Positions 1-14,971 of a stretch of DNA of 64,000 bases are shown one piece after another. Within the stretch, counting starts at the first letter, position 1. The number at the start of each line of letters is the position of its first letter. The stretch is from Achromobacter seleniivolatilans. GTDB lineage: Bacteria > Pseudomonadota > Gammaproteobacteria > Burkholderiales > Burkholderiaceae_B. A program made the translations under genes and the position numbers. The notes beneath the pieces are model-generated. The model did no database searches and had not been told where the DNA came from. It worked only from the letters and a program-made list of their open reading frames with translations. Location of the stretch: contig NZ_CP132976.1 of the NCBI RefSeq assembly GCF_030864005.1, positions 3,968,001 to 4,032,000 on the forward strand, read 5' to 3'.

Positions 1-168
1 CAGAACGCCGCGCTGGTGGAACAGGCAGCGGCGGCTGCCTCGTCGTTGGAAGATCAGGCCAAGCGGCTCGCGGCCACTGCGGCCTTCTTCAAGGTGCCGG
101 CCGAAACCATCATCGATGTCACAGCACAGCCCGCGCCGGTCATTTTGCGCCCTGCCTACGCCAGCTGA
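1..168 (+). CDS. Methyl-accepting chemotaxis protein, C-terminal end (partial)
   Basis: This is the last 55 codons of a gene that begins before the window, read in frame 1 to the TGA at 166-168. The first residues, QNAALVEQAAAAASSLEDQA, are the typical end of the cytoplasmic coiled-coil signalling domain of methyl-accepting chemotaxis proteins, followed by a variable tail ending in AYAS. There is no C-terminal NWETF-type CheR/CheB-docking pentapeptide. The ligand-binding part lies outside the window, so the stimulus cannot be inferred. Confidence 0.85.
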   Translation, partial: QNAALVEQAAAAASSLEDQAKRLAATAAFFKVPAETIIDVTAQPAPVILRPAYAS

Positions 169-337
169 GCACGGCGCTGCGGACGCGCTGCGCCGTGGAT
201 TCGGCCCGGTTTTGCGTCATCCTTTTGTACGAGCACTTTCGTCCTAGGGCTTTTCGATGACTTAAGAGTTGGCCCGCCAGGCCGTTGTCTAAGGGCAAGG
301 CGCCAAGTTCCGCACGGCGCCGTCCGCCCTCCCGACG

Positions 338-640
338 ATGAGCCTCCGCATGAACCGCGCACTCGCCTGTATGTTTTGCCAATCCACGCTGGCCCAAGGC
401 GCGCCGTTGCTGGAAAAGAACGGCGCCGCCATCTGCAAGCCCTGCGTGGACCAGTTCTCGGATCGCTTCGCCGAACGCGCCTGGGCCATGGCGACAACAC
501 TTCAAGAGCAGCTCGACGTGCTCCTTGACGAAAGCAGGCGAGCCCTGGAGCAAAGCGAAACTCTGGCCGAACGCGCTCGATCCTGCGGCTTTAGCCTGCA
601 CGATCTGTCGGCCTCGCTGCCGGATCGCCCCCTATCCTGA
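338..640 (+). CDS. Small stand-alone ClpX-type zinc-finger protein
   Basis: The 100-residue product carries C11-X2-C14-X18-C33-X2-C36, the same cysteine spacing as the N-terminal zinc-binding domain of ClpX (C15/C18/C37/C40 in E. coli), including an IC..C ending. Residues about 45-85 are rich in E, Q, L and A and probably form a helix or short coiled coil. There is no AAA+ domain, so it is not an unfoldase. The start could be the ATG at 338 or the one at 350; neither has a strong ribosome binding site. Function is unknown. By analogy it may dimerise, or bind adaptors or substrates as the ClpX domain does, but this is inference. Confidence 0.6.
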   Translation: MSLRMNRALACMFCQSTLAQGAPLLEKNGAAICKPCVDQFSDRFAERAWAMATTLQEQLDVLLDESRRALEQSETLAERARSCGFSLHDLSASLPDRPLS

Positions 641-676
641 CTCGGATTCAGCCATTCCGATGGCGCGGTTGTTTGC

Positions 677-1693
677 CTATTGATAATCAAACGTAAAAAC
701 CATGGCGCCATTCACAACACCGGGGCTTGGCGTAGCAGTAAGGCCATAGTAGCGAATGGCATATTGATAGGTCGACTGCAAATTGGCTGCAATCGAACCC
801 AATGCTGTACGCGTTTGCAGTGGGACAGGAGCATGGGTGACTGCGTTGACGAGCTGAACGCCAACGCCGCTGGCCACACCCGGGGCTCCTTCATTCAGAA
901 TGCCAAACACTCCCGCCGCAGCTGCGTTGATTGGCGTTCCTACGGCGCCGTCGAACGTAATCCCTACTACCGCAGCGCCATCGCAAGTCAGGCCGATCGA
1001 AAAGGGCGTTGGTAAAGCCGTGCTTCCGACCCCGGATATGCTTTTTGCGGCGACAGCAGCCAAGGACACAGTCGGCGGATAAGTTACGTTGCACGCGATC
1101 TGCCGCGTCACGATGTTGCCGCTGAATCCCATGTAGTTAATTCCCCCGCCACCCAAAGTCGAGGCAGCGCCACCATTGTAGACACCGAAGCCAAACCAGG
1201 TCTGGGATTGGTCCAGATTCCCGCCAAGTATTGCACCCGTCTTCACAAACTCGATCGATATCGTGATGGAGTAAGTGAGGTCCGCGTTCAGAGTTCCCAA
1301 GCGGGCCGCCCTTGTGTCGCAATTCACTCCCGAAGCGTTCGTCATCGGTTGTCCGGCAGCGTTGCGCAAACGAATACCGACACCCCCAACACCGGTGGAA
1401 TAGATGCCCGGCATCACTTCCGTACCGCTGCCGTAGTAGCACGAGACAACCGGTGCTCCGGAGTAGTTGGCTCCCGAAGCGGTACATTGCCCCGAAAGTG
1501 TGTAGTGCCGCATCGAGCCCGGGATGGTCTCACCGACGGCCAGATTGGAAGCCACCGCCATATTGTTCATCGTCTGCAGGTACGGCATCGCGGGCGAGGC
1601 CGAGCAACTTGCGTGGGCCAGGTGCGGCAGAAACAGCAAAGCCAGCACACATAGCAAATTCTTGAACGTTCCAAAGATCTCATACCGTCTCAT
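677..1693 (-). CDS. Fimbrial tip adhesin / minor pilin (two-domain)
   Basis: The 338-residue product starts with a signal peptide (residues 1-28, cleavage near AHA-SCS). Residues about 30-190 form an N-terminal region with several cysteines, expected to be the receptor-binding domain. From about residue 200 a pilin-type domain follows, with a cysteine pair (IACNVTYPP and LTCDGAAV) and the C-terminal alternating pattern ending FTFDYQ that donor-strand pilins use to contact chaperone and usher. It is the last gene of the leftward fimbrial operon, 148 bp after the usher. Length and two-domain layout are those of MrkD/FimH-type tip adhesins. The ligand is unknown. Confidence 0.8.
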   Translation of the reverse strand: MRRYEIFGTFKNLLCVLALLFLPHLAHASCSASPAMPYLQTMNNMAVASNLAVGETIPGSMRHYTLSGQCTASGANYSGAPVVSCYYGSGTEVMPGIYSTGVGGVGIRLRNAAGQPMTNASGVNCDTRAARLGTLNADLTYSITISIEFVKTGAILGGNLDQSQTWFGFGVYNGGAASTLGGGGINYMGFSGNIVTRQIACNVTYPPTVSLAAVAAKSISGVGSTALPTPFSIGLTCDGAAVVGITFDGAVGTPINAAAAGVFGILNEGAPGVASGVGVQLVNAVTHAPVPLQTRTALGSIAANLQSTYQYAIRYYGLTATPSPGVVNGAMVFTFDYQ

Positions 1694-1841
1694 GATTTAC
1701 CGCCAATACCAATAGTTGAAGAGAACGCAACGCTGGCAATCTGGCCGGCTTGCAAGTCAATGTTCGTGTGCGTCTTGTGGCAATAGCCGTTCGGAGCTTC
1801 ATATCGACGCGCCCTATTACCCAATACCTTTCTTCGCGGTT

Positions 1842-4403
1842 TCACTGGCACGTTGCCTCGATCAAAGGCAGATCCACTGCGTTACCGGATTTCAACTCCG
1901 GCAGTTGATATTCGATCTTGCATTGCTGCGCCTTTTCACTGCTCAACGACACTGTGAGTGCGCCGCTGCCGCTGTTGAGGCCACGCGCAAGGATGCGCCC
2001 GCCTTGCCCGACCGTGCCTACCGGCTGGCCTTCACCATTGAACACTTCGGCCCCAAACGGCAGCGGCTTGCCATCAACCGTCTTCGCCTGGATGATGGCC
2101 ACACGGCCAGCGTTCTCGGTATCGAACTTCATCTTCACCACCGCACCCGAGGTCGGCGCAACCTGCTGCAACGTCGACTTCAGCTCCACGCTGAGCGGCA
2201 GCCCCTTGGGATCGATTTCGATCTGGTTGCGCGCAAACGGCGTCAGGTTCGATACCACCGCGTGGCCCCAAGGGTCGACCCGCAGGCCGCTACTGTTCGT
2301 CAGGCGCGCGCCCGCGGCGTCCTTGGCTTCCACAATCGCCACGGTGTCGCTCATGGACGGGGCGAAAGCGACACCACCGTTGTACGCAACCACACCTCCG
2401 GAGATTCCGGCGCTGGCCTGCGTATATTTGTTGGCCTTGCTGGCGCTTGCGCTCAACGTTGCCACGGGTGACACATACGCGGCATTGGCGCCCAGACTCG
2501 TGTTGCTGCCAGCGTTTCCGCCGACGGAGCGCCCGGCGTTCATGCCATAGCTGACAGCATTGTCGGTACCCAGCGATCCCGTGACCGCCTCGTTGACCGT
2601 GGCGCCCCCCGAAGAACTGCTTTGCAAGCTGGTCATCGAGTACGGCGCCTGCGGGCTTTTGCCCAGCGGAATGCCGATGTTCAACATGACCCGGTTTTCC
2701 CAGCTGGAGGTGCCGACATTGAACTGGCGAGCCGCCGAAACGCCGTAGTTCACTCGCTTGTACGAATTGTTGTAGCCAACCTGGTATTGCGTGTCGCGGC
2801 CACCGCGGTTCCAGTAGTCTTGCGTGGAACCCGATAGATAGACGCTGCCGTAACCGGCCGGCAAGCCCTGGTTGACTGTCATTTGCAAACGGCCACGCTG
2901 AATGCTTCTGACTGACGACGCGCCATTGCGCTGCTCCGCATCGCGCAGCGCCACGGCATCCGACTGGCTCAGAAAGCCGCTGGTGGAGTAACGGTAAGCC
3001 GCCAGCGTAAGGTTGGTATTGGTGGGCGCCACCAGCTTGCTATAGCTCAATCGAACGCTCTGCCCGCTGCGGTCTGGCTCTGTACTCAACTTCGTTGTGG
3101 CGTGCGTGACGTCCAAACCGAATGCGCCGAAGTCCGTGTTCAATGCCGCGCCGGCCACGGCAGCCGCATAGCCCTGCGCCGCCGTCACCCCGCCGTAACC
3201 CGTTACCAGATTGGTGAAGCCATGCTGCACGGTGGCCTGAAGCATCTCAGGCGTACTGCGAACCGTGGCATTGCGATACTTGCCAGCAGTGACGGTGTAA
3301 CGCGTCACGCCAGGGCGCAGCGCATTGACTGCCGCGGCATAAGGCATCTTCGACACGTGAACGCTGCCATCGGCCTCGGTGACCACCACTTCAAGGTCGC
3401 CGCCGTACCCGGTCGGATAGAGGTCGTTAATTTCGAAGGCGCCAGCCGCCACCGTCGTCTCATAGATGACGTTGCCGTTCTGGCGGACTTGCACGCGCGC
3501 GTTGCTGTTGGCGATACCGCGGATGGTCGGCGCGTATCCGCGCTGCGACTCGGGAAACATGCGGTCGTCGCTGGCCAGTTGCACACCGCGAAATCCCACG
3601 CTATCAAACATCGTGCCGTCGGTAAACGCGTCACCAATCACCAACTGACTCTTGATTGGGGCGATCGAGCGCTGCAGATTGGTCTGCATGCTCTGGTAGC
3701 GGCTACCGGTCTGGTCGTTGTGGGTCAGGCTGCCGCTATGGCGAAAACGCCACGAACCGATGTTGACACCTGCATTCAGCCCGACATAAGCCTGCGTCGA
3801 GGAAAAACCCTGGCCTTCGTTGCGATAGGCATTGGCGTTGTACTGCAGGCGCGCGGCAGTAATGCCGTCGTCCCAGTATTTTGGATCGACATAGTCGCGA
3901 GCCTGCCGGCTCATGACGATCTGCGGCAAGCTCACATCCAGCCGCTGCTCGCCATTGTCGAAGCTTGCGGTGGCGTCGGGGATCAGTTCCGAAAGGACCA
4001 TACAGGCGGCGCCTTGATCCTGCAGACGCTCGCTGGCTTGCGGCGTCAGCTTGGAAAGGTCCACGCCAATACGTTCCAACAAGCTACGGTCAAAGCACGG
4101 CTGCACATTTCGGGGGTCATTGCCCGCCGCACGTAACATCACGTCAGCACGGCCCAGCCATGCATCATTGACGTAGATTTCTGACCGGTAGTTGCCCGCC
4201 GATGCACCGTTGCCCTTGCTGAACCGGCTGATGTCGATGGGCGAGCCCCCCGACTTCTGCAGAAAGGTATCGTCGAATTCGACGTCGGCTACCGTGACGG
4301 CGGCCGGCGTAGCCGCCCACGTCGCTGCGCCTGAAAACAACAGCATGACGATGGCACTGGCAGGGCGTAAAGGAAACGGGAACGGCCGTATTGACTTAAG
4401 CAT
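1842..4403 (-). CDS. Outer-membrane fimbrial usher (FimD/PapC family)
   Basis: This is an 853-residue usher. The chosen start (ATG at 4403) gives a normal signal peptide (MLKSIRPFPF... to AATWAA). The frame stays open upstream to 4520, but that extension has no signal-peptide character. After the periplasmic N-domain (VEFDDTFL...) comes a pair of cysteines (QPCFDRSLL, GAACMVLSEL), the beta-barrel with plug region (LYPTGYGGDLEVVVTEADGS is typical), and a C-terminal domain with a second cysteine pair ending EATCQ. Its role is assembly and secretion of the pilus. No Shine-Dalgarno sequence is visible; the mRNA reads CACCUCC just before the start. It lies between the chaperone and adhesin genes. 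Confidence 0.93.
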   Translation of the reverse strand: MLKSIRPFPFPLRPASAIVMLLFSGAATWAATPAAVTVADVEFDDTFLQKSGGSPIDISRFSKGNGASAGNYRSEIYVNDAWLGRADVMLRAAGNDPRNVQPCFDRSLLERIGVDLSKLTPQASERLQDQGAACMVLSELIPDATASFDNGEQRLDVSLPQIVMSRQARDYVDPKYWDDGITAARLQYNANAYRNEGQGFSSTQAYVGLNAGVNIGSWRFRHSGSLTHNDQTGSRYQSMQTNLQRSIAPIKSQLVIGDAFTDGTMFDSVGFRGVQLASDDRMFPESQRGYAPTIRGIANSNARVQVRQNGNVIYETTVAAGAFEINDLYPTGYGGDLEVVVTEADGSVHVSKMPYAAAVNALRPGVTRYTVTAGKYRNATVRSTPEMLQATVQHGFTNLVTGYGGVTAAQGYAAAVAGAALNTDFGAFGLDVTHATTKLSTEPDRSGQSVRLSYSKLVAPTNTNLTLAAYRYSTSGFLSQSDAVALRDAEQRNGASSVRSIQRGRLQMTVNQGLPAGYGSVYLSGSTQDYWNRGGRDTQYQVGYNNSYKRVNYGVSAARQFNVGTSSWENRVMLNIGIPLGKSPQAPYSMTSLQSSSSGGATVNEAVTGSLGTDNAVSYGMNAGRSVGGNAGSNTSLGANAAYVSPVATLSASASKANKYTQASAGISGGVVAYNGGVAFAPSMSDTVAIVEAKDAAGARLTNSSGLRVDPWGHAVVSNLTPFARNQIEIDPKGLPLSVELKSTLQQVAPTSGAVVKMKFDTENAGRVAIIQAKTVDGKPLPFGAEVFNGEGQPVGTVGQGGRILARGLNSGSGALTVSLSSEKAQQCKIEYQLPELKSGNAVDLPLIEATCQ

Positions 4404-4535
4404 GATGGAGGTGACAGTAAATTCTGGACAGCCCCATCCCTGCCATGCAATCGCATTGGCAAATGTGCAACTCAGGATCAGGCTTGGGGATGTGATCGAT
4501 ATGACGCGAAGGTGCGTCACATCGACAGGCAGGGT

Positions 4536-5288
4536 CTATCGAACCGGAACCGCTTCGCCGACAGTGGCGCCGCCTTGGTCATTGATGGCTTGGTAGTGGA
4601 TCTTGATATCCGAAGTCAGATTCAGCTCGCCCGCAAGCGGAAATGTTTTGGTCTCTCCCGGGCGAACCATGCCACCGTCGTCAAACTTGGCTGTCTTGCC
4701 AGCGCTGGTGACTTCCATTCGGGCAAACGAAACATGGTAGGGCGTGGGATTGCGGGCTTCGACACTCAGGGACTTGCCACTTTGAACAATGCGCCACGTA
4801 ATCTGCGCCGGAGCCTCTTGCGGGCTGCCCTTTAGGGCGGCCGGGCGGAAGAAAAGTTTGATGCGCGAGCGAAACGCCAGTTGCAGCTTATTCGCGTCCG
4901 CCTCATTGGCGCTCTGTTTGGGCGGGATCTCCAGCACATTGAGCCAGAACACGGATTCCACGTCCTGCGGCAGCGCCTCGCCGGTATAGAGAATGCGCAG
5001 GGTCTGCCCCTTGGCCGGATCGATACGCGTAACGGGCGGAGTCACTGTGAAAGGGACATTGATGCTGGCCGGAGCAGCTGCCGGATCACCCTTGTCGATC
5101 CAAACCTGCGTCAATGCGGGAGCCTTCCCTTCATTGGTCAACTTGATCGTGATCTCGCGCTCCTGCGCGTTGTAGATCACACGGGTGCCAGCGATCACGA
5201 CCGAGGCGTGCGCGTTCAGCGCTCCCGCAAGGCCCATGACAAGCAAGCCTGCGGCTAGCACGGAGTGGAACTTTCGCCTGGTATTCAT
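4536..5288 (-). CDS. Periplasmic fimbrial chaperone (PapD family)
   Basis: The 250-residue product has a signal peptide (MNTRRKFHSV to about ALNAHA) followed by the PapD fold. Visible hallmarks are the first strand ASVVIAGTRVIYNAQEREITIKLTN, the proline-rich edge, and the subunit-binding strand SVFWLNVLEIPP followed by LQLAFRSRIKLFFRP, which is the classic pili-chaperone signature region. It binds pilins in the periplasm by donor-strand complementation and delivers them to the usher. An in-frame ATG nine bases earlier (5297) is an alternative start. It is separated from the pilin gene by a hairpin and from the usher by 132 bp. Confidence 0.93.
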   Translation of the reverse strand: MNTRRKFHSVLAAGLLVMGLAGALNAHASVVIAGTRVIYNAQEREITIKLTNEGKAPALTQVWIDKGDPAAAPASINVPFTVTPPVTRIDPAKGQTLRILYTGEALPQDVESVFWLNVLEIPPKQSANEADANKLQLAFRSRIKLFFRPAALKGSPQEAPAQITWRIVQSGKSLSVEARNPTPYHVSFARMEVTSAGKTAKFDDGGMVRPGETKTFPLAGELNLTSDIKIHYQAINDQGGATVGEAVPVR

Positions 5289-5328
5289 GATCGTCATTAA
5301 AAAAAGAAGTTGTTCTGGGGAGATAAGA

Positions 5329-5349
5329 GTGGAGCCGCAAGAGCTCCAC
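5329..5349 (-). terminator. Intercistronic hairpin between pilin and chaperone genes
   Basis: A perfect 7-bp stem (GTGGAGC / GCTCCAC) with a 7-nt loop lies between the pilin stop (5361) and the chaperone start (5288). On the mRNA it is followed by UCUUAU rather than a clean U-run. It is best read as a partial terminator or RNA-stabilising hairpin that makes the major pilin more abundant than the downstream assembly proteins, an arrangement common in fimbrial operons. That role is inferred. Confidence 0.55.
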
Positions 5350-5360
5350 CCAACTGCTTA

Positions 5361-5900
5361 TTACTGGTAGGCGATCGTGTACATCACGCTCGAATTGGCG
5401 GCGCCGGCAGTAGCGGCACCGGTCGCCACGTATTGGGCGTAGTAGGGCAAGGTCGCCGAGCCAGCGGAAATGGCGACTGACTTGGAGTTCTGCGCGGCAT
5501 CAGCGAAACCGGCCTTGATATCGGTTTGGTCTGCGCCGTTTTGCAGGCCGATCTGCACATTCATGGCGCCGCCTTGCGCCACAATCAGGTGGCCCGTCGT
5601 CAAGTCAGTGGTCGGGCCAGACTCAAAAAAGGTGTGCACGTTGCCGCTGGTCGGCGAGCAGTTGGTCAGCTCGATGCTGAACGGCGTGCGGCCTGCGGTT
5701 TGGCCGGCGGCAGCCAGCGAGCTTGTCGAAACCGTGGGCAGCGTCACAGCGAAGTTCGAGGCGGCGCCACCACCGTTGATGGTGCAGGATTGGGCGGTAA
5801 CGTTGCCATTGAACGTGATGGTGCCATCCGCAGCGGATGCCATTTGCGAAGCCATCGCGGTACCAGCGATGATCAGGGCGGTAAGAAGCTTGTGTTTCAT
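5361..5900 (-). CDS. Major fimbrial subunit (type 1 pilin family)
   Basis: This 179-residue pilin has a signal peptide (MKHKLLTALIIAGTAMASQM to about ASA), the N-terminal strand ADGTITFNGNVTAQSCTING, a cysteine pair (QSC... and ELTNCSPT) and the C-terminal beta-zipper ending SVMYTIAYQ with the penultimate tyrosine. The frame is open to 5951, but the ATG at 5900 gives the proper signal sequence. It is the first gene of the leftward operon and should be the shaft subunit. The leader lacks a clear Shine-Dalgarno sequence. Upstream lies the inverted-repeat element at 6038-6184. Confidence 0.92.
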   Translation of the reverse strand: MKHKLLTALIIAGTAMASQMASAADGTITFNGNVTAQSCTINGGGAASNFAVTLPTVSTSSLAAAGQTAGRTPFSIELTNCSPTSGNVHTFFESGPTTDLTTGHLIVAQGGAMNVQIGLQNGADQTDIKAGFADAAQNSKSVAISAGSATLPYYAQYVATGAATAGAANSSVMYTIAYQ

Positions 5901-6037
5901 GTCGGTTCTAACTAAGTAGGAGAATAAAAAATCGGAAGTTGTATGCGCCAAGGCGCCTGGGAGGTATCCGCAACAGTCTTCATCACTGCCGAGAGTGGGA
6001 AGCAGAGCTGAACGGCTGCTACGAATCCTTGAGCAGT

Positions 6038-6184
6038 AGATTAGGAGTTACGACGCGCGGGCGACATAGAACTACCTCTATTTTTGGGTGCAGCCGCGAG
6101 CAATACGCCGGACACGGCCAAGCCGTGGCTTGCCGCTTTTATCGACATCGTTCTATGTCGCCCTCTCCGCGCAGAATCTAATCT
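6038..6184. repeat. 147-bp element bounded by 35-bp imperfect inverted repeats
   Basis: The arms are 6038-6072 and 6150-6184. The innermost 14 bp (GGGCGACATAGAAC / GTTCTATGTCGCCC) and outermost 7 bp (AGATTAG / CTAATCT) are perfect, and several of the 14 middle positions also match without a gap. The 77-bp core holds two mutually exclusive small hairpins (CACGGC-CAA-GCCGTG at 6113-6127, CAAGCC-GT-GGCTTG at 6119-6132). It sits between the divergent pilin and EAL genes, so it could be an invertible promoter element, paired regulator sites or a MITE. No flanking target duplication is obvious. Confidence 0.7.
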
Positions 6185-6231
6185 GGCGTAGAGGGCATGC
6201 GCTACGCGTCGACCCAAATGCCGCATTCTTT

Positions 6232-6236
6232 GGGAG
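6232..6236 (+). promoter_or_regulatory. Ribosome binding site that fixes the EAL gene start
   Basis: GGGAG lies 7 nt before the GTG at 6244. No upstream in-frame ATG, including the one at 6088, has a comparable site, and translating from 6088 would read through the inverted-repeat element. The GTG is therefore the chosen start. Confidence 0.6.
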
Positions 6237-6243
6237 TGACCTA

Positions 6244-7065
6244 GTGACCGCCACAAGCTCGACGCCGCGCATGCGATGCGCGCCTACCGAAGCCGTTGCC
6301 GGTGATGCGCAGCTGGAAAGAACGCTGCAAGACGCCATTACCCGAAACGAAATGTTCGTCGAATATCAACCGGTGTTCCGGCTTCAAACTGGGGACATGA
6401 TCGGCGTCGAAACCCTTTTGCGATGGCGTCACCCGGAACGTGGCGTCCTATCACCCAGCGCATTCATTCCACTTGCCGAAACTAGCGGCCTCATCGTGCC
6501 GATTGGGGAGTTTGTGCTGGAAGATGCATGCCGGGTGCTGCGCGAATGGCGATCGGCCGCCATGCGTGGCCTATCAGTGTCGGTAAACGTCTCTGCGGCA
6601 CAGCTCGCGTACGGAGATTTTGTGCGCGTGGTGCGTGAATGCGTCGACGAATATGGCGTCGATGTACGGCGCCTGCAGCTTGAGATTACCGAGACAGTGC
6701 CGTTCAAAGATAGACAGCTTGTCCTCAAGCGGCTTATCGAGCTGCGGCGGCTTGGCCTGCGCATCGTGCTCGACGATTTTGGGTGCGGCTACATGACGCT
6801 GCAGCACCTGACCACCCTGCCCGTCGACGGCATTAAAATTGACCAGTGCTTCACCACCGCACTGCCGGACGAGCCGCGCGCGGTGGCGGTCGTCTCATCG
6901 ATGGTAGAGTTGGCCACGCGCCTCAAGCTGTCCATCGTGATCGAAGGTGTCGAAACACCCCGCCAAGCGTCGTGGCTGAGTGCTTACGACAACGTCTGCG
7001 TGCAAGGCTGCCTGTACGCGAGGCCGCAGCCTATCCTTCGCGAACCACTCAGAATCCGCCCATAG
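6244..7065 (+). CDS. EAL-domain cyclic-di-GMP phosphodiesterase
   Basis: The 273-residue protein is a single EAL domain with a 20-residue lead and no GGDEF, receiver or membrane segment. Catalytic features are retained: ETLLRWRHP (residues 56-64, EAL changed to ETL but the glutamate kept), N115 in SVNVS, LEITE (146-150), DDFG with D177/D178, K198 in GIKID, E234 in IEGVET and Q254 in VQG. It should hydrolyse c-di-GMP to pGpG in the cytoplasm. It is divergent from the fimbrial operon and convergent with the sensor kinase gene, so it probably lowers c-di-GMP to control fimbriation, as MrkJ and PvrR do. Confidence 0.9.
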   Translation: MTATSSTPRMRCAPTEAVAGDAQLERTLQDAITRNEMFVEYQPVFRLQTGDMIGVETLLRWRHPERGVLSPSAFIPLAETSGLIVPIGEFVLEDACRVLREWRSAAMRGLSVSVNVSAAQLAYGDFVRVVRECVDEYGVDVRRLQLEITETVPFKDRQLVLKRLIELRRLGLRIVLDDFGCGYMTLQHLTTLPVDGIKIDQCFTTALPDEPRAVAVVSSMVELATRLKLSIVIEGVETPRQASWLSAYDNVCVQGCLYARPQPILREPLRIRP

Positions 7066-7128
7066 AACAATGAATCCGATGCCTGATTCTGACGCTCCAA
7101 GCGCTCGGTGACGGCGCTCTCTTTCCCC

Positions 7129-10100
7129 CTACTTCTCGCCGGGGGATTCTGCTAGTTCCAGCATCTGTTCAAACTCCTGGCCCAATGCGCGCGCCAGCGC
7201 TTCTATGTCGCTGTTCCACTGTTTGCTATCTGCGATCAGCGCACGGAGTTCCTCGCACCCTTCGTGCAGCATCGACGGCCCCAGCACGCACAGCGCGCCC
7301 GAGACACAGTGCGCCCACCGGTCAAGCTCTTCGATGTCACAAGATTTGATTGCACTGTCAAGCGTGTCGATGTCGCGATGAGCCTGTTCGACAAAGATGC
7401 TGGTGTAAGCCGCAGGCAGCAACGGGAAACGCGGCAGACCGGTATCCTCGACCGCGTCTGCCATTGGTGAGTTCGCAACCGGCCCCGTCGCACCGGCATT
7501 ATCCGGATCATCTCGCAGGGCTTGATCCGGGTTTGCCGCATCATCAAGAACGCGGGCGAGCGCTGCCAGCGCCACCGGCTTGCTCAAATAGTCTGTGAAG
7601 CCATGTTCCCGGCCCTGCGTGACGTCCTCGGGGCGCACATTCGCGCTTACCGCGTAGATCCGTAGCGAGGGGTCGCGCTGCCGAGCCGCCGCCAGCAGCT
7701 CGTAGCCGCTCATCCCGGGCATGTTGATATCCGTAAGCACGATATCAACGTGCATAGCGTCAAGTTTCGCAAGCGCCTGATTACCATCCGCAGCTTCAAC
7801 CACCTTCGCGCCCAAGGTACTCAATTGGTCGCGCAATAAGCCGCGGTTGAGAAGATTGTCTTCTGCGATCAGCACGGTCAGGCTGCCGTAATTGCGCCCG
7901 CCAGACGGCCGGTCTTTGGGTGAAGGCGCGGCCGCCCCGCCTGCAGTGGTGGTTCCGGGCAAAGCGCGCAGCAGCTGCGTGGCAGCGCGTATACCGGCAA
8001 GGCTGTAAATACTGACTTCGACGCTGCCGGTTTCGCGCAGCACGGGCACAAGCGGTCCGTCCTGGCGCAACCACACGACGTTGTGCCATGGCCCCCACAG
8101 CGTCAGCACCTCTTGCGCCGTATATTCGTCCGTGACAAGCAGGAAGTCCGCACCCGCCTGCGGCTGCGCCTTCGAATCCGCGGCGAGCAACGCCGGAGGA
8201 TTTTTCTGGGCATCGAACAAATTTGCGAGCCACTCCTGGTTCTCAATGGCTCGGCATAGAATCGCCACACGTGAGTCGGGCAACGTCCATCCATCACTCG
8301 CCAGACCGGCATCGCTGCCTTGCAGCGGCAGCGTGACCGTGATCCGCGTACCGACGCCCGGCGTGGATTCGAGATCTATCCGGCCATGCATCAGAGTACA
8401 TAGCCGCGCACATATCGACAGCCCCAGCCCGGTGCCGCTGGAGCGCGTCAGACGTTGGTCATCCCCTTGCGTGAAAGGACGAAACAGCCGCCGTTGCAGA
8501 TCTTCATCGATCCCGACTCCGGAATCGGCAACACTGATCTTGAGCTCGCTATTGACCCATAGCGCGCGCACAACGATCTTGCCGGATGCCGTGAATTTGA
8601 ACGCATTGGAGAGCAGATTTTCAACGATCTGCGCCAGACGCACGGCGTCGAACTTCAACTGTGCGGGAATCCCGCGGTCCATGACAAAGTAGAAACTCAA
8701 GCGCTGCCGCACGGCCAGCGGCGCGTGGGCAAGCACAATGCGGTTGAGCAAGTCCGTCACCGATGACCATTCCTCGCTCAGCCGCATTTGGCTGACGTCC
8801 ATTTTGGAAAAATCGAGCACGTCATTGACGATCTGCAGCAGACTGGTGGCGGACGCCCGCATCGCTTGCACGCGAGCCTCCTGCTCGGGCACAAGCGGAC
8901 CCAGCGCAACCAACTCCAGATTGCCCACCAGCGACGAGAGTGGCGTGCGAATCTCGTGGCTCATCGATGCGAAGAAGCGCACCTTTTCGCGCGCGGCCTC
9001 GTCGCTGGTGCGCTTTGCCTCACGCAACAGTTGCGCGGCTTCGTAGTGCTCAGATATGTCATTGATCGCGCAAAAGAGCACGCTCTCACCATATATCTGC
9101 GCCGGAGCATACGTAATCTCAAGGTGCATGTTGTCGCCGCCGACACATGCAAGGGTGAACACGAACTGGTGGATGGGCGGCTCGTCGGCGCCCGTAACCG
9201 TATCCGCAGGCGACAAGCGCGGCGCGAGCGCCTCGCAAAGCGTATCGGGCAACTTCGTCGCCAGGTCGCCCAGGCCGAACATGCGGCGGGCGATCTGGTT
9301 GGCGACGACCATTTCGAAGTCGCGCTGGCGCACCACGCACAGGCCGACCGGCGTGGCATGAACAAGAAGATGATTGATCAATTCACCTTCGAGCGCACGC
9401 TGCGCTTGTGCGTAGGTGCGTGTCAGGAAACGGTAATTCCAGTAACGCGCCATCGCGAACAGCAGCGAAATCAGCGCAAATGTCGTGAAGAGGATGATCA
9501 GCAGCGGGACACGGATCAGGGCAAGGAATTGATGCCACGGAATGGCAATCATGTAGCGGCCGAAGTCAAAAGCGAGTGGATTTTGCGTCGACACCCAGCC
9601 AAAGCCCGAGACCTGATGAAACACCTCCTCTTCCCTGCTTGTGAGGTTTCTCTCGATATTCTGCACGGCTTCGGCCGACAACGGACCCGCTAGCCGCTGC
9701 CCATCCGGACCGAGCAGCGTCGGCACCGGCGCGTCGGTTGCCATCGCGGCCGGAGGCAAAAGTTCGCCAGCGTCGACCGCAGTAATGATCAGGGTGTCAG
9801 GCTCCTCATTGAATTGGACAAGCTGTGCACCGAGTACCAGCGTCGGCGCGAATCCAAGTGCCACGGGCGCTCTGAACCAATGGACGGCACGCAGATCATT
9901 GTCGATGGGCGGGGGGAGATTCGCCTTGTCCGCGGCAATCTTCTTGAGCGCGGCATTGGTCAGCTCTCGCAGAGCCGAGGCCGGCTCCACAGGCGCGTTG
10001 CCCGGTTGCGCAACTGGGGCGATCTGGTAGCTGTAGGCCGCCTTGCCGTCCAGGCGCACGAACATCATCGGCACCCGGGCCGAAAATGGCGTGAAAAGTT

Positions 10101-10488
10101 GCACAGCCCGGTCGCATAGCCTGCGCAGATCAGGAGACTCGGGAACTCCCTCAAATGTCGGGCTGCACGCTTCCGATAATGGCGTCGCGCCATGCACCAG
10201 CAGACCTCGTTCCTGAAGGCCGAACAACATCCGCGCGCCCATCAGCAGGCTAAAGCGGCGCAGCAACAGCTCATTGCTCTTACTTTCCGTGCGGTGCACC
10301 TGATGCATCTGCAGCAACAACGCGTTCGTGCCAACGCTGACTATCGTGAAGCCCGCCGCACACAGCGCCGCAAACACGAGCAGCACGATCACCATCGAAA
10401 ACACCCGGCGCTCGCGCTTGAGACTTGCTTCGAGCGCATGCAGTGTCTTGAGCGGCGACGAAGGCGACGACCGAAGCAGGCGTTCCAT
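7129..10488 (-). CDS. Hybrid sensor histidine kinase with receiver and Hpt domains (RcsC/RocS-like)
   Basis: The 1119-residue protein has transmembrane segments at about 31-51 and 326-346 enclosing a 270-residue periplasmic sensor region, then a PAS-like region (370-480), HisKA with H511 in SHEIRTP, HATPase with NLLSNAFKF, DSGVGI and GTGLGL, a degenerate receiver-like region (740-845), a true receiver (871-985; acidic E876/D877, phospho-acceptor D920, K970) and a C-terminal Hpt domain with H1060. The phosphorelay would run H511-D920-H1060 to the adjacent regulator. The start overlaps the regulator stop as TGATG, implying translational coupling. The ligand is unknown. Confidence 0.92.
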   Translation of the reverse strand: MERLLRSSPSSPLKTLHALEASLKRERRVFSMVIVLLVFAALCAAGFTIVSVGTNALLLQMHQVHRTESKSNELLLRRFSLLMGARMLFGLQERGLLVHGATPLSEACSPTFEGVPESPDLRRLCDRAVQLFTPFSARVPMMFVRLDGKAAYSYQIAPVAQPGNAPVEPASALRELTNAALKKIAADKANLPPPIDNDLRAVHWFRAPVALGFAPTLVLGAQLVQFNEEPDTLIITAVDAGELLPPAAMATDAPVPTLLGPDGQRLAGPLSAEAVQNIERNLTSREEEVFHQVSGFGWVSTQNPLAFDFGRYMIAIPWHQFLALIRVPLLIILFTTFALISLLFAMARYWNYRFLTRTYAQAQRALEGELINHLLVHATPVGLCVVRQRDFEMVVANQIARRMFGLGDLATKLPDTLCEALAPRLSPADTVTGADEPPIHQFVFTLACVGGDNMHLEITYAPAQIYGESVLFCAINDISEHYEAAQLLREAKRTSDEAAREKVRFFASMSHEIRTPLSSLVGNLELVALGPLVPEQEARVQAMRASATSLLQIVNDVLDFSKMDVSQMRLSEEWSSVTDLLNRIVLAHAPLAVRQRLSFYFVMDRGIPAQLKFDAVRLAQIVENLLSNAFKFTASGKIVVRALWVNSELKISVADSGVGIDEDLQRRLFRPFTQGDDQRLTRSSGTGLGLSICARLCTLMHGRIDLESTPGVGTRITVTLPLQGSDAGLASDGWTLPDSRVAILCRAIENQEWLANLFDAQKNPPALLAADSKAQPQAGADFLLVTDEYTAQEVLTLWGPWHNVVWLRQDGPLVPVLRETGSVEVSIYSLAGIRAATQLLRALPGTTTAGGAAAPSPKDRPSGGRNYGSLTVLIAEDNLLNRGLLRDQLSTLGAKVVEAADGNQALAKLDAMHVDIVLTDINMPGMSGYELLAAARQRDPSLRIYAVSANVRPEDVTQGREHGFTDYLSKPVALAALARVLDDAANPDQALRDDPDNAGATGPVANSPMADAVEDTGLPRFPLLPAAYTSIFVEQAHRDIDTLDSAIKSCDIEELDRWAHCVSGALCVLGPSMLHEGCEELRALIADSKQWNSDIEALARALGQEFEQMLELAESPGEK

Positions 10489-11150
10489 CAGCAGAATCCG
10501 TGATCGGCCGCATAGCGAATCAGATCCGCGTTGGTTTCGACATGAAGCTTGCGCATAGCTATGCGCTTTTGCGTTGCAATGGTCGTCACCGCGCGCTTCA
10601 GACGCTTCGAAATATCGGTGACCGACAATCCCATCGCAAATAGACGTACCACTTCAAGCTCGCTCGGCGATAGCGGCGTCATAGCACTGAAGTCTTTAGT
10701 GGTGCTTCCTTCTTCTGCCAGACGTGCCTCGATCTTTGGAGAGAGCACAACATGGTTCGCGCCAAGCGCGCGCTGGCAGACCTGCGCAAGGGTGTTGCGC
10801 GGTTCTTCCTTGCTGACGATCGCAGCCACGCCAAGGCTGCAGAGCCGGTTCAAGATAGCGCCGTTTGTGAGCATCGTGAAAATGACGATGGGCGTATCGG
10901 GATAGAGGCGCTGCAGGCGGCCAATCAGACGCAAGCCATCGACTTCGTCATCTTTGCCTTTCATCGTGAAATCAGTGACGATCAGCCCAAAGGGCCCATT
11001 GCGGGCCAGCTCATCAAGCAGCTCAGCGCCTGAACGCACTGTGGCTCGCACGACAAAGCCGAGCTCACCAAGCGCATGCGCGACCGCCGATAAGATGATG
11101 GGATGGTCGTCCGCAACGACGACTTCCAGCTTATGAAGAACGTTCGTCAT
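10488..11150 (-). CDS. RcsB-like LuxR-family response regulator
   Basis: The 220-residue regulator has a receiver domain (acidic D14/D15, phospho-acceptor D60, K114) and a C-terminal LuxR-type helix-turn-helix. The stretch LSPSELEVVRLFAMGLSVTD followed by ISKRLKRAVTTIATQKRIAM closely resembles the E. coli RcsB DNA-binding domain, including the TI..QK motif. The start at 11150 (MTNVLHKLEV) is chosen because the domain begins there; the frame is open to 11210. It is the first gene of a two-gene operon with the hybrid kinase and is the likely end of the phosphorelay. Probable targets are the neighbouring fimbrial or EAL genes (inference). Confidence 0.9.
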   Translation of the reverse strand: MTNVLHKLEVVVADDHPIILSAVAHALGELGFVVRATVRSGAELLDELARNGPFGLIVTDFTMKGKDDEVDGLRLIGRLQRLYPDTPIVIFTMLTNGAILNRLCSLGVAAIVSKEEPRNTLAQVCQRALGANHVVLSPKIEARLAEEGSTTKDFSAMTPLSPSELEVVRLFAMGLSVTDISKRLKRAVTTIATQKRIAMRKLHVETNADLIRYAADHGFC

Positions 11151-11322
11151 ATTTGCCCCGATCGCCGTCGGACACAACGATGCCGGACACACCCGCCACA
11201 GGCATCCCACATTTGCTCGGTGGTTGCCTCCGCCGACAGGAGCACCACATTGGAATTCATTCTAGATGAGTCAATGCCAAAGTGGAATTCGGCAAAACAT
11301 GGCAATTGCGCAACGCAGCAAA

Positions 11323-11826
11323 TCAATGGGCGCTTACGACTTCCGGCGCGCTGCCGGCATCGATCGCGGCCGCCGTATCCGGCACGCCAGCGCAGTGCGG
11401 ATGAAAGCAATCGACCGAAAATTGGCTCCCGCCACAGCATGATCCCCGGCAAGTGCGTGTCGGCATTTGCTTAAAGCGGATCGGCGCCGCGGCAAAGGGG
11501 GCAGGCGCCACGGAGGCGGACTCCGGAGTGGAAAGCCATGCGTTGATTTCAGGCGTGCGGCAAGCAAGGCTGGCGACCATAAACGCGATCGTAGCGGCCG
11601 CCATGATGAATATGACAATGGGAGCAAGCCAGAGGCCCAGGGTTGCTTGCTGCCAGATGAGAAAGAGCACTGCGAAGGACAACAGGAAGCAGATTGGCAA
11701 AATCCAGAGTGCGAAATGACAGATTCGCTCGCACAGACGCACGAAGGACAGCCCGATAGGGAGGTGTTGGTAAGCGGTCACGCAGTGTGGCTTGGCGAAT
11801 ATTGTCTCGGAGGCATGTTGATGCAT
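11323..11826 (-). CDS. Hypothetical membrane protein with two transmembrane helices
   Basis: The 167-residue product has two hydrophobic segments (about residues 37-60 and 64-90), then an Ala/Pro-rich stretch and a cysteine-rich tail (TCRGSCCGG, VDCFHPHC) that could bind metal. I do not recognise the family. The start at 11826 lacks a strong ribosome binding site. Support for it being real comes from the clean double-helix topology and from the 20-bp palindrome 32 bp upstream. It may belong with the adjacent two-component system, or it may be an unrelated small gene. Confidence 0.45.
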   Translation of the reverse strand: MHQHASETIFAKPHCVTAYQHLPIGLSFVRLCERICHFALWILPICFLLSFAVLFLIWQQATLGLWLAPIVIFIMAAATIAFMVASLACRTPEINAWLSTPESASVAPAPFAAAPIRFKQMPTRTCRGSCCGGSQFSVDCFHPHCAGVPDTAAAIDAGSAPEVVSAH

Positions 11827-11858
11827 GCCAGCAATTTATTGGCTAAGCGAAGTGGCCT

Positions 11859-11878
11859 ATATAGAAGGACTTCTATAT
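11859..11878. promoter_or_regulatory. 20-bp palindrome upstream of the small membrane protein gene
   Basis: ATATAGAAG-GA-CTTCTATAT is a perfect 9-2-9 inverted repeat, AT-rich in a GC-rich genome, 32 bp before the start at 11826. It has the form of a dimeric regulator site. The cognate protein is unknown; the RcsB-like regulator next door is one possibility, without direct evidence. Confidence 0.45.
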
Positions 11879-11932
11879 TCCGGGAAATGGGTTGCCAACG
11901 GGAATCGCTGGCCAACTCTCGGAGCCCAAACG

Positions 11933-11959
11933 AAAAACGCCGCTAGTAATAGCGGCGTT
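11933..11959 (-). terminator. Rho-independent terminator of tRNA-Lys
   Basis: A perfect 10-bp stem (AACGCCGCTA / TAGCGGCGTT) with a GTAA loop lies 24 nt downstream of the tRNA 3' end. On the minus strand it is followed by UUUUU, encoded by the A-run at 11933-11937, which overlaps the base of the stem. Confidence 0.85.
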
Positions 11960-11982
11960 AATTTCGATACTGCGGTATTAGG

Positions 11983-12058
11983 TGGTGGGCTGAGCGAGAC
12001 TCGAACTCGCGACCAACGGATTAAAAGTCCGCTGCTCTACCGACTGAGCTATCAACCC
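11983..12058 (-). tRNA. tRNA-Lys (anticodon TTT)
   Basis: This is a 76-nt cloverleaf read on the minus strand. The acceptor stem GGGTTGA pairs with TCAGCCC, the D arm is AGCTCAGTCGGTAGAGC, the anticodon arm is CGGACTTTTAATCCG with anticodon TTT, and the T arm contains GTTCGAGTC. The CCA end is encoded. It has its own promoter and terminator. No integrase gene or duplicated 3' end is visible nearby, so there is no sign of an integrated element. Confidence 0.97.
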
Positions 12059-12072
12059 GACCGAAGCCAGAA

Positions 12073-12101
12073 ATTATGGCGGATTTAGAAAGTTTTGTCA
12101 A
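12073..12101 (-). promoter_or_regulatory. Sigma-70 promoter of tRNA-Lys
   Basis: On the minus strand, TTGACA (12096-12101) and CATAAT (12073-12078) are separated by exactly 17 bp. Transcription would start about 8 nt before the tRNA 5' end at 12058. Confidence 0.8.
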
Positions 12102-12141
12102 AAAAAATACGCATAAGGGGGACATGCCGCCCCGACTGCGC

Positions 12142-12169
12142 AAAAAAACGGCCGCTTGCGGCGGCCGTT
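12142..12169 (-). terminator. Rho-independent terminator of metNIQ
   Basis: A 9-bp GC-rich stem (AACGGCCGC / GCGGCCGTT) with a 5-nt loop lies 24 bp after the metQ stop. On the minus strand it runs into a U-run encoded by the A-tract at 12142-12148. Confidence 0.85.
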
Positions 12170-12192
12170 GCTGGTGTCGGATGACCCTGGAT

Positions 12193-12990
12193 TTACCAGG
12201 CGGCCACCACGGCGCCCTTGTACTTGGTCTCGATGAACTGCTTGACTGCCGGGCTGTGATAAATGCTGATCAGCTTGGCGTACTCAGGACGGTCCTTATC
12301 CTTTTCGCGCACAACCAGCACGTTGGCGTACGGCGAATCCGGCGATTCCTGGGCGATGGCATCCTTGGTGGGATTCAAGCCTGCTTCCAGTGCGAAGTTG
12401 GTGTTGATAGCCGAAGCGTCGGTGTCATCCAGCGAACGCGGCAGTTGGGCGGCGTCCAATTCGATGAAGCGCAGCTTCTTCTTGTTCTCGACGACGTCGA
12501 TCGGCGTGGCCTTCAGGCCGGCTTCCGGACGCAGCTTGATCAAGCCGTTGGCTTGCAACAACAACAGGGCGCGGCCGCCGTTGGTCGGGTCATTCGGCAA
12601 GGCGATACGCGCGCCGTCCTTCAGGTCGGCCAGCGACTTGATCTTCTTGCTGTAGATGCCGATCGGGAAGATCACCGTCTTGGCGATGCTGACCAGCTTG
12701 TAGCCGCGATCGGCGTTGGCGTTGTCCAGGTAGGGCTGGTGCTGGTAGCTGTTCACGTCCAGGTCGCCAGCGGCCAAGGCCACGTTGGGCTGCACATAGT
12801 CGGTGAACTCGATGATCTGAATGTTCAGGCCTTGCTTGGCGGCTTCAGCCTTCACCACATCAAAGATCTGGGCGTGCGGGCCGGCGGTAACGCCAACCTT
12901 CAACGGCTTGTCTTGTGCCAGCGCGGGCTGGGCCAGAACGGAGGCGCCCAGGGCGAACGCGGCCAAGGACTTCAAAAGCTTGATGCTCAT
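12193..12990 (-). CDS. metQ: Methionine ABC transporter substrate-binding protein
   Basis: The 265-residue protein is a NlpA/MetQ-family periplasmic binding protein (KPLKVGVTAGPHAQIFDVVK, then ALAAGDLDVNSYQHQPYLD). It captures D- or L-methionine for MetNI. The start at 12990 (MSIKLLKSLAAF) gives a normal signal peptide ending ALAQ. No lipobox cysteine is present, unlike E. coli MetQ, so it is probably a soluble periplasmic protein instead of a lipoprotein. It is the last gene of metN-metI-metQ, 56 bp after metI. Confidence 0.9.
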   Translation of the reverse strand: MSIKLLKSLAAFALGASVLAQPALAQDKPLKVGVTAGPHAQIFDVVKAEAAKQGLNIQIIEFTDYVQPNVALAAGDLDVNSYQHQPYLDNANADRGYKLVSIAKTVIFPIGIYSKKIKSLADLKDGARIALPNDPTNGGRALLLLQANGLIKLRPEAGLKATPIDVVENKKKLRFIELDAAQLPRSLDDTDASAINTNFALEAGLNPTKDAIAQESPDSPYANVLVVREKDKDRPEYAKLISIYHSPAVKQFIETKYKGAVVAAW

Positions 12991-13046
12991 GTTGCGATAT
13001 CCCGAATAACGGATGTAGAGAGAAGAATGAAAAAGCGCCGGAGCGA

Positions 13047-13700
13047 TCAACGATGCGACAGGCGGCGCACAAAGCGGTCGCCAAGGCTTTGAATCGCCTG
13101 GACCAATACGATCAGCACAATCACGACCGCGGCCATAACGTCTGACTGGAAACGCTGGTAGCCGTAGCGGATGGCCAGGTCGCCCAGACCGCCGCCGCCA
13201 ATGGCGCCGGCCATGGCCGAATAACCGATCAGGCTGACAACCGTGACGATGGTCGCGGCGATGAGACCGGGCAAGGCCTCGGGCAGCAGCACCTTCAAGA
13301 TGATCTGCATCGGCGATGCGCCCATGGCGCGCGCCGCGGTGATCAACCCTGGGTCCACTTCACGCATGGCGTTCTCGGCGATACGGGCCATGAACGGGAT
13401 CGCGGCCACCGACAACGGCACCATGGCGGCAGTGGTGCCAATCGACGTCTGCGCCACCAGGCGCGTGAACGGAATGATGGCAACCATCAAAATCACGAAC
13501 GGCACCGAGCGGGTCGCATTGATGACCGCGCCCAGCACGTGATTGACCGGTTGGTTTTCCAGCATATTGCCGCGAGCGGTCACGGTAAGCGTAACGCCCA
13601 AAGGAATGCCGATGAGCACCGCAATCGCGCTGGCCACACCCACCATCAACAGGGTGTCAAGCAGCGACGTAATAAGGAGATCGATCAGTTGCGGACTCAT
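13047..13700 (-). CDS. metI: Methionine ABC transporter permease
   Basis: The 217-residue inner-membrane protein has about five transmembrane helices and the ABC permease EAA-loop region (ARAMGASPMQIILKVLLPEA), characteristic of MetI. It pairs with MetN ATPase and MetQ for methionine import. Its start (ATG at 13700) lies 44 bp inside the end of metN, an unusually long overlap that suggests translational coupling. Confidence 0.92.
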   Translation of the reverse strand: MSPQLIDLLITSLLDTLLMVGVASAIAVLIGIPLGVTLTVTARGNMLENQPVNHVLGAVINATRSVPFVILMVAIIPFTRLVAQTSIGTTAAMVPLSVAAIPFMARIAENAMREVDPGLITAARAMGASPMQIILKVLLPEALPGLIAATIVTVVSLIGYSAMAGAIGGGGLGDLAIRYGYQRFQSDVMAAVVIVLIVLVQAIQSLGDRFVRRLSHR

Positions 13701-14745
13701 GAGCTATTTCTTCAACGGTAATGTCACGGGCGGTCAACGCGGCAATCGCGTCCTTGACCGCAGCGGGCGCGCCTTGGGCCAGCACGAACAGCGTGCCCAC
13801 GGCCACGCCTTGGATATCTTCAACGCGGGCCTGCACCAGGCCCACATCCAGCGAAAACTGCTTTGACAGATCAGACAGGAACGAACCCGACGCATCGGTG
13901 CCCGTCAGCGACAAGCGCAACAGGCGAACAGCCTGGCCCGGCTTGGCGGCAGCCAGCGTTTCTATGCGCTGCTTGACGGCGGCCAGCGTGGCGTCGGTCA
14001 AGTCAGAAGCCGTAGCCGCCGACACCATGCCGCGCGTCACATCGTGACGCGGCTGCGCGAACACTTCACGCGTGCTGCCCACTTCAACCACTTCGCCTTG
14101 CGACAGCACGGCAACACGGTCGCAGACTTCGCGCACGACTTCCATCTGGTGCGTGATCATGACAACCGTCACACCCGTCTTGCGATTGATATCGCGCAGC
14201 AACGCCAGAATGGTGTGGGTGGTTTCCGGGTCCAGCGCGGATGTGGCTTCATCGCTGAGCAACACGTCCGGGTTGTTGGCCAGGGCGCGGGCGATGCCCA
14301 CGCGCTGCTTCTGGCCGCCACTGATCTGGCTCGGGTAGCGGTCGCGCAGATGCTCCAGGCCCACCAGCGCCAGCAAGCGCTCGACGCGTGCCGGAATCTC
14401 GGCCTTGGCCACGCCAGCAATCTCAAGCGGCAACGCGACGTTGCCGTAGACGGTGCGGCGCGACAGCAGGTTAAAGCCTTGGAACACCATGCCGATACGG
14501 CGGCGTTGGGCGCGCAGTTGCGCCTCGTTCAGGCCGGTCAGCTGTTGGCCGCCGATGGCGATAGAGCCTTCGTTCGGGCGTTCGAGCAAGTTGATGCACT
14601 GGACCAGCGTGCTTTTACCGGCCCCGCTGGGGCCGATGATGCCAAAGACCTCGCCCTGCTCGATATGCAGGTTGATGCCTCGCAGCGCCTGGAATTGTCC
14701 ATGCGGCGTGGCATAGGTCTTGGATAGGTTCTCGATGTGAATCAT
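13657..14745 (-). CDS. metN: Methionine ABC transporter ATP-binding protein
   Basis: The 362-residue ATPase has Walker A GPSGAGKST (about 38-46), the signature ISGGQKQRVGIARAL, Walker B VLLSDEATSALDP and the H-loop MITHQME, followed by a C-terminal ACT-like NIL domain that senses methionine and inhibits transport in MetN proteins. It is the first gene of the operon. It is slightly longer than the usual 340-345 residues, because the reading frame runs 44 bp into metI. A 17-bp palindrome lies 21 bp upstream. Confidence 0.93.
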   Translation of the reverse strand: MIHIENLSKTYATPHGQFQALRGINLHIEQGEVFGIIGPSGAGKSTLVQCINLLERPNEGSIAIGGQQLTGLNEAQLRAQRRRIGMVFQGFNLLSRRTVYGNVALPLEIAGVAKAEIPARVERLLALVGLEHLRDRYPSQISGGQKQRVGIARALANNPDVLLSDEATSALDPETTHTILALLRDINRKTGVTVVMITHQMEVVREVCDRVAVLSQGEVVEVGSTREVFAQPRHDVTRGMVSAATASDLTDATLAAVKQRIETLAAAKPGQAVRLLRLSLTGTDASGSFLSDLSKQFSLDVGLVQARVEDIQGVAVGTLFVLAQGAPAAVKDAIAALTARDITVEEIAHESATDRSPYYVAA

Positions 14746-14765
14746 GGCAAGCGATTTTGTATCTT

Positions 14766-14782
14766 TTCTCTTCTAAAGAGAA
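14766..14782. promoter_or_regulatory. 17-bp palindrome in the metN leader
   Basis: TTCTCTT-CTA-AAGAGAA is a perfect 7-3-7 inverted repeat 21 bp before the metN start. It could be an operator or a small leader hairpin. It matches neither the MetJ box (AGACGTCT) nor a recognisable SAM riboswitch. Confidence 0.4.
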
Positions 14783-14898
14783 CGACCGTTTTTTCCATTT
14801 TTAATAGCTAGAAGTAATATAGAGCGCCATCATCGCCTTACGGCGTCCCCGATGGGGCCTACAGCATTCCCTGCAATCTGGTGTCAGGCAGAAGGCGG

Positions 14899-14940: not shown

Positions 14941-14971
14941 AACGGTGGCCGGCTAAGCGGCCACGCAGGCG

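Follow-up and report, generated by a model that had tools for sequence, protein, structure and literature searches.

In a 64,000-nucleotide stretch of Achromobacter seleniivolatilans DNA (contig NZ_CP132976.1, positions 3,968,001 to 4,032,000; the whole stretch is called the window below), a chaperone-usher fimbrial operon, a gene for a single-domain EAL protein and a gene pair for an unorthodox histidine kinase and an RcsB-like response regulator form one locus. Its three transcription units (fimbriae; EAL; small gene-regulator-kinase) all carry upstream the palindrome WTMGAA-N4-TTCKAW and, at exactly 22 nt from it, a hexamer TANNNT. We consider it likely that the locus is a horizontally acquired cassette for the control of surface adhesion, in which a regulator activated by phosphorelay would co-activate the fimbriae, the EAL gene and itself through these palindromes. 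The original prediction had placed seven genes in the region 677..11150 and read them as fimbriation under the joint control of a phosphorelay and local cyclic di-GMP (c-di-GMP). All seven are present as open reading frames (ORFs) in the order given, and joint control of fimbriae and EAL gene by the local regulator is supported by the identical operator-promoter signatures on both genes. The part of the prediction that did not hold is the tie of the kinase-regulator pair to fimbriae and EAL, for in Caballeronia and in several loci of Paraburkholderia the pair occurs with neither of them detected. Since FHA/TpsB genes of the Caballeronia loci still have the operator in front of them, a portable regulator of surface genes is the better reading of the pair. 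No description of the locus or of the operator was found in open-licence papers.

Operator and promoter signature

The string GTTCTATGTCGCCC-N14-CTAATCT occurs twice in the window, on the two strands of the gap between the pilin and EAL genes and facing outward, and was absent from 100 shuffles. Across the 6.86-Mb genome, its 14-mer is matched exactly only at these two positions in the gap, and once more elsewhere with one mismatch. The 5' part of the 14-mer extends to a 16-bp palindrome that also stands before the small gene-regulator-kinase unit, and ATAGANNNNNTTCTAT has three exact places genome-wide, two of them inside the locus. A palindrome near -42 occupies the position of a class II activator, and the 22-nt geometry would put the palindrome there.

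The signature was then followed in 29 sister loci (627 kb) that carry a related kinase, 23 from a genome scan and six from plasmid records (of nine covering at least 80% of the kinase), with 21 loci (420 kb), exclusive of the eight congener clusters described below, as a control set. The core derived from the window gave eight matches with at most one mismatch in the sister loci, against a mean of 0.13 and a maximum of 1 in 15 Markov resamples, and 33 matches with at most two mismatches, against a mean of 2.8 and a maximum of 6; these 33 group into 21 context clusters. The control loci returned 0 and 2 matches at the same two thresholds (resample means 0.07 and 2.0). With a consensus widened after the Caballeronia sites had been seen, and over sister loci that are related to one another, 59 sites with at most one mismatch were collected from positions 1-16,000 of the window and the 29 sister loci. 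By a crude gene caller that missed some genes, 49 of the 59 are intergenic, as compared with 17.8% of the sequence. Removal of similar contexts left 43 non-redundant sites, of which 23 show the hexamer TANNNT on one side at a distance of exactly 22 nt, an offset that had not been used in site selection; the mean over the other offsets (5-44, minus 21-23) is 0.22. Among 61 weaker sites in the control loci, a single one shows the hexamer at 22 nt (mean 0.4 per offset). The genes downstream of hexamer-bearing sites include the pilin gene, the EAL gene and the small-gene unit in the window, FHA, TpsB and small genes in Caballeronia, and YadA-like adhesins and small genes in Burkholderia.

Proteins of the locus and a possible mechanism

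The phospho-acceptors that the original prediction had read in the kinase, H511, D920 and H1060, are found as claimed and are invariant in 43 aligned sequences (the window's included), and the regulator has its acceptor Asp, D60, in the motif VTDFTM. The His, Asp, Hpt His and regulator Asp of an unorthodox (HK-REC-Hpt) two-component system are hence all present at residue level. RcsB structures are the best solved relatives of the regulator, in agreement with the class first assigned to it. An AlphaFold model of the kinase reached a mean pLDDT of 78 and a pTM of 0.40, and identification of the sensor by fold was tried and abandoned: the 50 listed model matches are kinases, phytochromes or NifL, which left the periplasmic fold without a name. 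The EAL protein is a single domain in which nine tested positions, which we take from family knowledge to be the catalytic ones, are all canonical, and its PDB matches include EAL enzymes. By domain search, the fimbrial operon is complete, comprising pilin, PapD-type chaperone, usher and tip-like subunit.

The EAL gene and the fimbrial operon are transcribed divergently, the EAL and kinase genes convergently, and the start of the EAL gene is likelier the GTG at 6244 than the GTG at 6088. The regulator stop and the kinase start overlap by one base, and the same shared coordinate is annotated in four Caballeronia records and in the plasmid pRF23. The functional locus extends past position 11150 to tRNA-Lys and takes in a gene for a small membrane protein (11323-11826), a component overlooked originally. 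With the -10-like hexamer just a few bases ahead of 11826, translation of this gene probably begins later than that position. Homologues of this gene stand upstream of the regulator in 10 of the 23 related genome loci, and most aligned relatives share a CFHxxC-type cysteine pattern; profile searches gave no Pfam or NCBIfam match for the protein, and a DNA search of plasmids with the small gene and its upstream region gave no match. The features are collected in Table 1.

Table 1. Features of the locus, with positions in the window
Feature	Position	Strand	Basis or remark
Fimbrial tip/adhesin-like subunit, 338 aa	677..1693	-	Pfam Fimbrial 40.9 bits; MrkD receptor-like 22.8 bits, below cut-off
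Outer-membrane usher, start uncertain	1842..4424	-	Usher 564.7 bits, PapC_N, PapC_C
Periplasmic chaperone, PapD-type	4536..5297	-	PapD_N, PapD_C
Major pilin	5361..5903	-	FimA 80.7 bits, Fimbrial 55.6 bits
-10-like TAATCT, pilin operon	6038..6043	-	22 nt after operator
Predicted operator of pilin operon, ATAGAGGTAGTTCTAT	6066..6081	-	
Predicted operator of EAL gene, ATCGACATCGTTCTAT	6141..6156	+	
-10-like TAATCT, EAL gene	6179..6184	+	22 nt after operator
Single-domain EAL protein, 273 aa	6244..7065	+	EAL 227 bits; 9/9 tested positions canonical
Unorthodox histidine kinase: transmembrane (TM) segment, periplasmic domain, TM, PAS-like region, HisKA, HATPase, linker domain, REC, Hpt	7129..10488	-	Domain search, residues, alignment, structure model
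RcsB/NarL-type response regulator, REC-GerE	10488..11150	-	One-base overlap with kinase
Weak operator-like site upstream of regulator	11250..11265	-	2 mismatches; no TANNNT at 22 nt in context inspected
Small conserved membrane protein, Cys-rich C-terminus, up to 167 aa	11323..11826	-	Homologues and alignment
-10-like TAAATT, small-gene unit	11833..11838	-	22 nt after operator
Predicted operator of small gene-regulator-kinase unit, ATAGAAGGACTTCTAT	11861..11876	-	
tRNA-Lys, edge of variable slot	11983..12058	-	

From these elements we infer the following course. The membrane kinase would sense a periplasmic or membrane cue, and phosphate would pass from H511 through D920 and H1060 to D60 of the regulator. 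The phosphorylated regulator dimer would bind the 16-bp palindrome centered near -42 and, presumably as an activator rather than a repressor, switch on the fimbrial operon, the EAL gene and its own small gene-regulator-kinase unit together, the last of these amounting to positive feedback. The EAL protein, acting as a putative phosphodiesterase, may lower c-di-GMP, a predicted direction of effect by which fimbriation would be tied to a low c-di-GMP state or limited in duration. Beside the sister kinases, the same operator would serve FHA/TpsB, trimeric autotransporter or other genes, and in the congener Rcs/Pvr-like clusters the regulator gene itself.

Genomic setting and sister loci

A search with the 490-residue sensor part of the kinase gave a match in one of 43 genomes of the genus (E <= 1e-20) and in one of 399 sampled genomes of the order (E <= 1e-30; at most three candidates per genome scored), in both cases the window's own. 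Among 79 related proteins, the window's own included, the closest sensor identities are 65% in C. metallidurans and 62% in A. marplatensis, followed by 30-48% in Paraburkholderia, Burkholderia and others. The best kinase, EAL and usher relatives of A. marplatensis lie on contigs of equal size (599,675 bases), taken as one contig; further equal-size contigs, likewise taken as the same, join an EAL and an usher relative (8,106 bases) and kinase/EAL pairs (18,722 and 1,815,451 bases). The kinase matches listed from congeners are about 28-40% identical, mostly over the core, and the five nearest kinases of its own genome reach 32-33%. Three more clusters of RcsB-like regulator, kinase and EAL protein lie in that genome, L031, L032 and L033, near 5.99, 1.53 and 6.10 Mb, respectively; only L032 has a receiver-like match on its EAL protein. 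L032 also holds the nearest own-genome relative of the regulator (about 49-51% identity), and its 19-kb stretch contains no operator with at most one mismatch. Ten related fimbrial loci (ushers 47-59% identical; nine in congeners and one own paralogue) have no kinase of this lineage. As a separate observation, a regulator and two other kinase-like ORFs lie ahead of the related fimbrial operon in two congeners (L074, 12184-18556; L075, 12405-18595).

The insertion site was compared in 16 genomes fetched out of 22 other same-genus genomes with the MetQ neighbor. The right flank, from about tRNA-Lys onward, is conserved in all 16. The left flank matches up to window position 611-641 in six congeners and ends at about 20-35 in two more, and these eight have 0.3 to 7.1 kb of other DNA in the slot; the left match of one further congener (L141) ends at about -2936, and seven match the right flank only. 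The locus itself was matched at the tRNA-Lys slot in none of the 16, an integrase-like ORF adjoins the tRNA side in three, and no integrase was seen among the genes of the locus. Accordingly, the locus is best taken as cargo of a tRNA-Lys hotspot.

In other Burkholderiales, the genes beside the sister kinases differ from one group to the next. Four Caballeronia records have FHA/TpsB-type genes next to the kinase-regulator pair, and in three of them (L081, L082 and L084) a diguanylate cyclase faces the kinase, at about 13.3-14.9 kb, in the place of the window's EAL protein; the listed sites include none with at most one mismatch before these cyclases. The conjugative plasmid pRF23 of B. ubonensis holds the whole gene set, with chaperone-usher fimbriae and a YadA-like adhesin, and the sixth plasmid record (C. 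metallidurans CH34) carries a more distant kinase and no annotation. Trimeric autotransporters flank the kinase in L095, where no regulator was detected, in L101 (B. anthina) and in L107 (B. cepacia). An HMW1C-like gene is present in L100, ABC transporter and outer-membrane efflux genes in L102, and EAL genes lie near a kinase without fimbriae in L102 and L103. No intact regulator stands beside the kinase in L086 and L088, which both retain a regulator-like 3' end there (9900-10010). The ORF that precedes this remnant in L086 (8816-9853) is a phage-type integrase, so that the regulator gene may have been the integration site of an island. A plasmid search based on the EAL protein led to five fetched records, of which the four with gene tables have large EAL proteins without the pair and the fifth has no annotation.

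Several observations weigh against the cassette reading. Since the consensus was widened after some of the sites had been seen and the sister loci are related, the site counts are not fully independent. On pRF23 the pilin promoter lacks the operator (best site, four mismatches) despite the plasmid's whole gene set, and the site upstream of its EAL gene has two mismatches. Adhesins are not universal beside the sister kinases, because the genes downstream in the Paraburkholderia loci L086, L087 and L104 encode TonB-receptor, PepSY or DUF2946 proteins; 11 Paraburkholderia-type loci showed no adhesin by the queries used, and the two that were scanned among these have TonB-receptor and/or PepSY genes downstream. 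A regulator was detected in 15 of the 23 genome loci and none beside the kinase in the other eight. Enzymatic output of the EAL protein, judged from degenerate relatives at sister loci, is not general, and cross-talk with other RcsB-like regulators is possible, the operator being common to other regulators as well.

If the cassette reading is true, fimbriae, FHA-like and trimeric adhesins and c-di-GMP genes would stand under one portable switch. What had been a guess from gene neighborhood would thereby become a testable regulon, in which an exact operator with a fixed spacing predicts the promoters governed by an uncharacterized regulator in several genera.

Alternative readings and known systems

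The same gene classes are present at the cupD locus of Pseudomonas aeruginosa, and the present locus might be a derived member of the CupD/RcsCB/PvrSR type, with an Rcs/Pvr-like regulator and operator, one kinase of another lineage replacing both RcsC and PvrS, and an EAL protein acting as a PvrR-like antagonist without receiver. Evidence for this comes from eight congener clusters (L142-L149), all ordered kinase - EAL protein - kinase - regulator, with EAL open frames of 408-509 amino acids and regulators 53-55% identical to the window's. Fetched later as an independent set, they contributed 11 operator sites, eight of which have TANNNT at 22 nt; seven of the eight are TAGATT before the regulator, in seven of the eight clusters. 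This excluded an operator private to the kinase lineage, a possibility that had been entertained. As the operator precedes these regulators in seven clusters, the code is assigned, on sequence grounds, to one subfamily of RcsB-like regulators. Identity to the window's regulator is 48-65% for those beside sister kinases, so that the regulator separates the sister and congener groups far less than the kinase does, and the comparison with CupD is, by regulator sequence, closer than one would judge from the kinase by itself. Published work on P. aeruginosa has RcsB as the activator of cupD, PvrS as a kinase and RcsC as a phosphatase and relay (PMC2696094, PMC3842833), and the cupD1 promoter cannot do without a GAA at -78..-76 (PMC3842833), a core that recurs as GAA/TTC in the operator of the window. 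Against such a derivation, the closest sister-kinase regulators are nearer than those of any congener cluster, the kinase reaches 31-37% in the top congener matches, and no fimbrial gene was detected by the queries used in the 20-kb stretches of the eight clusters. The window proteins also score far under the cut-offs of the NCBIfam models (RcsC, 360 of 920 bits; RcsB, 114 of 235; PvrR, 120 of 580), which are scores against models and not against the P. aeruginosa proteins; kinase and regulator thus fail the RcsC and RcsB equivalog models. We regard this derivation as unlikely, albeit worth serious attention.

A second alternative concerns the EAL protein, which could act as a c-di-GMP sensor or through binding to a protein partner instead of degrading c-di-GMP. 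Degenerate EAL proteins that have lost several catalytic residues stand beside three sister pairs (L080, pRF23, 13588-14394; L102, 14344-15357; L103, 14488-15504) and may have a non-enzymatic role there. All nine positions are intact, however, in the window protein and its nine nearest listed relatives, and a non-degrading function of the window protein seems rather improbable to us.

A different chromosomal regulator might also bind the operator and leave the local phosphorelay in control of something else. Binding by the local regulator is itself a prediction, congeners have related regulators that share this operator, and the consensus palindrome is matched exactly at three further sites of the chromosome. 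Yet these three lack the hexamer at 22 nt and a clear adhesin gene and were treated as chance matches, the operator accompanies this regulator subfamily across genera, and in 13 related fimbrial loci without the kinase-regulator pair, where one pilin start per locus was tested, no nearby site had fewer than two mismatches. Control by another regulator is accordingly given little credence. The two 14-bp arms, which match perfectly and are oppositely oriented in the gap between the divergent genes, might point to an invertible phase switch. This is very improbable, as no recombinase was found among the scanned locus proteins, inversion would swap only the inner halves of the operators without moving either promoter, and single copies of the palindrome with its hexamer precede other genes in sister loci.

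Under the preferred reading of a portable adhesion-control cassette, the likeness to cupD that had been proposed originally holds in part. Like cupD with RcsCB/PvrSR in P. aeruginosa PA14 (PMC2696094, PMC3842833), the locus combines chaperone-usher fimbriae, an Hpt-bearing kinase, an RcsB-like activator and an EAL protein on a mobile island, with the fimbrial operon beside its regulators, and regulator and operator are common to Rcs/Pvr-like clusters. The differences pointed out at the outset also stand: the locus has one kinase in place of the RcsC and PvrS pair, and its EAL protein consists of the EAL domain alone, unlike PvrR, an EAL response regulator with a receiver. Further differences are the kinase sensor and the EAL gene, which is divergent from the fimbriae and has the same operator. 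The congener Rcs/Pvr-like clusters, to which the cassette is thus tied within its own genus, share the regulator type and the operator with its hexamer spacing and differ in their two kinases, larger EAL protein and only distantly related kinase sequences. pRF23 agrees with the window in uniting small gene, regulator, kinase, EAL gene and chaperone-usher operon, down to the one-base regulator/kinase overlap, and departs from it in gene order and orientations, in its degenerate EAL protein, in the additional YadA-like adhesin and in the pilin promoter.

A further comparison is offered by BCAM0227 of B. cenocepacia, which has two TM helices, a large periplasmic loop and a HisKA-HATPase-REC-Hpt arrangement (PMC4504480, PMC12838280), and to which the window kinase is likened by this described architecture. 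BCAM0227 is reported to autophosphorylate on Burkholderia diffusible signal factor (BDSF) and to transfer phosphate to the DNA-binding BCAM0228 within a trimeric-adhesin (TAA) cluster (PMC3404963, PMC4504480, PMC12838280), and another group attributed to it a negligible role in BDSF signaling (PMC3703271). The pair lies beside trimeric adhesins, as do the sister loci L101 and L107, and it differs from the window in the type of adhesin and in a gene list that, as given there, names no EAL or fimbrial gene. BDSF as the ligand of the window kinase is a lead only. More tentatively, and with slightly more doubt than belief, we suggest a Burkholderiales-wide subfamily of RcsB-like regulators with a fixed operator code, which together with one mobile kinase lineage would have captured fimbriae, two-partner FHA systems, trimeric autotransporters and c-di-GMP genes on islands and plasmids. 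BCAM0227/BCAM0228 may be a studied member of it, so that its members may respond to fatty-acid signals; a possible relative reported to sense BDSF would offer a route to the signal of this family of adhesin regulators.

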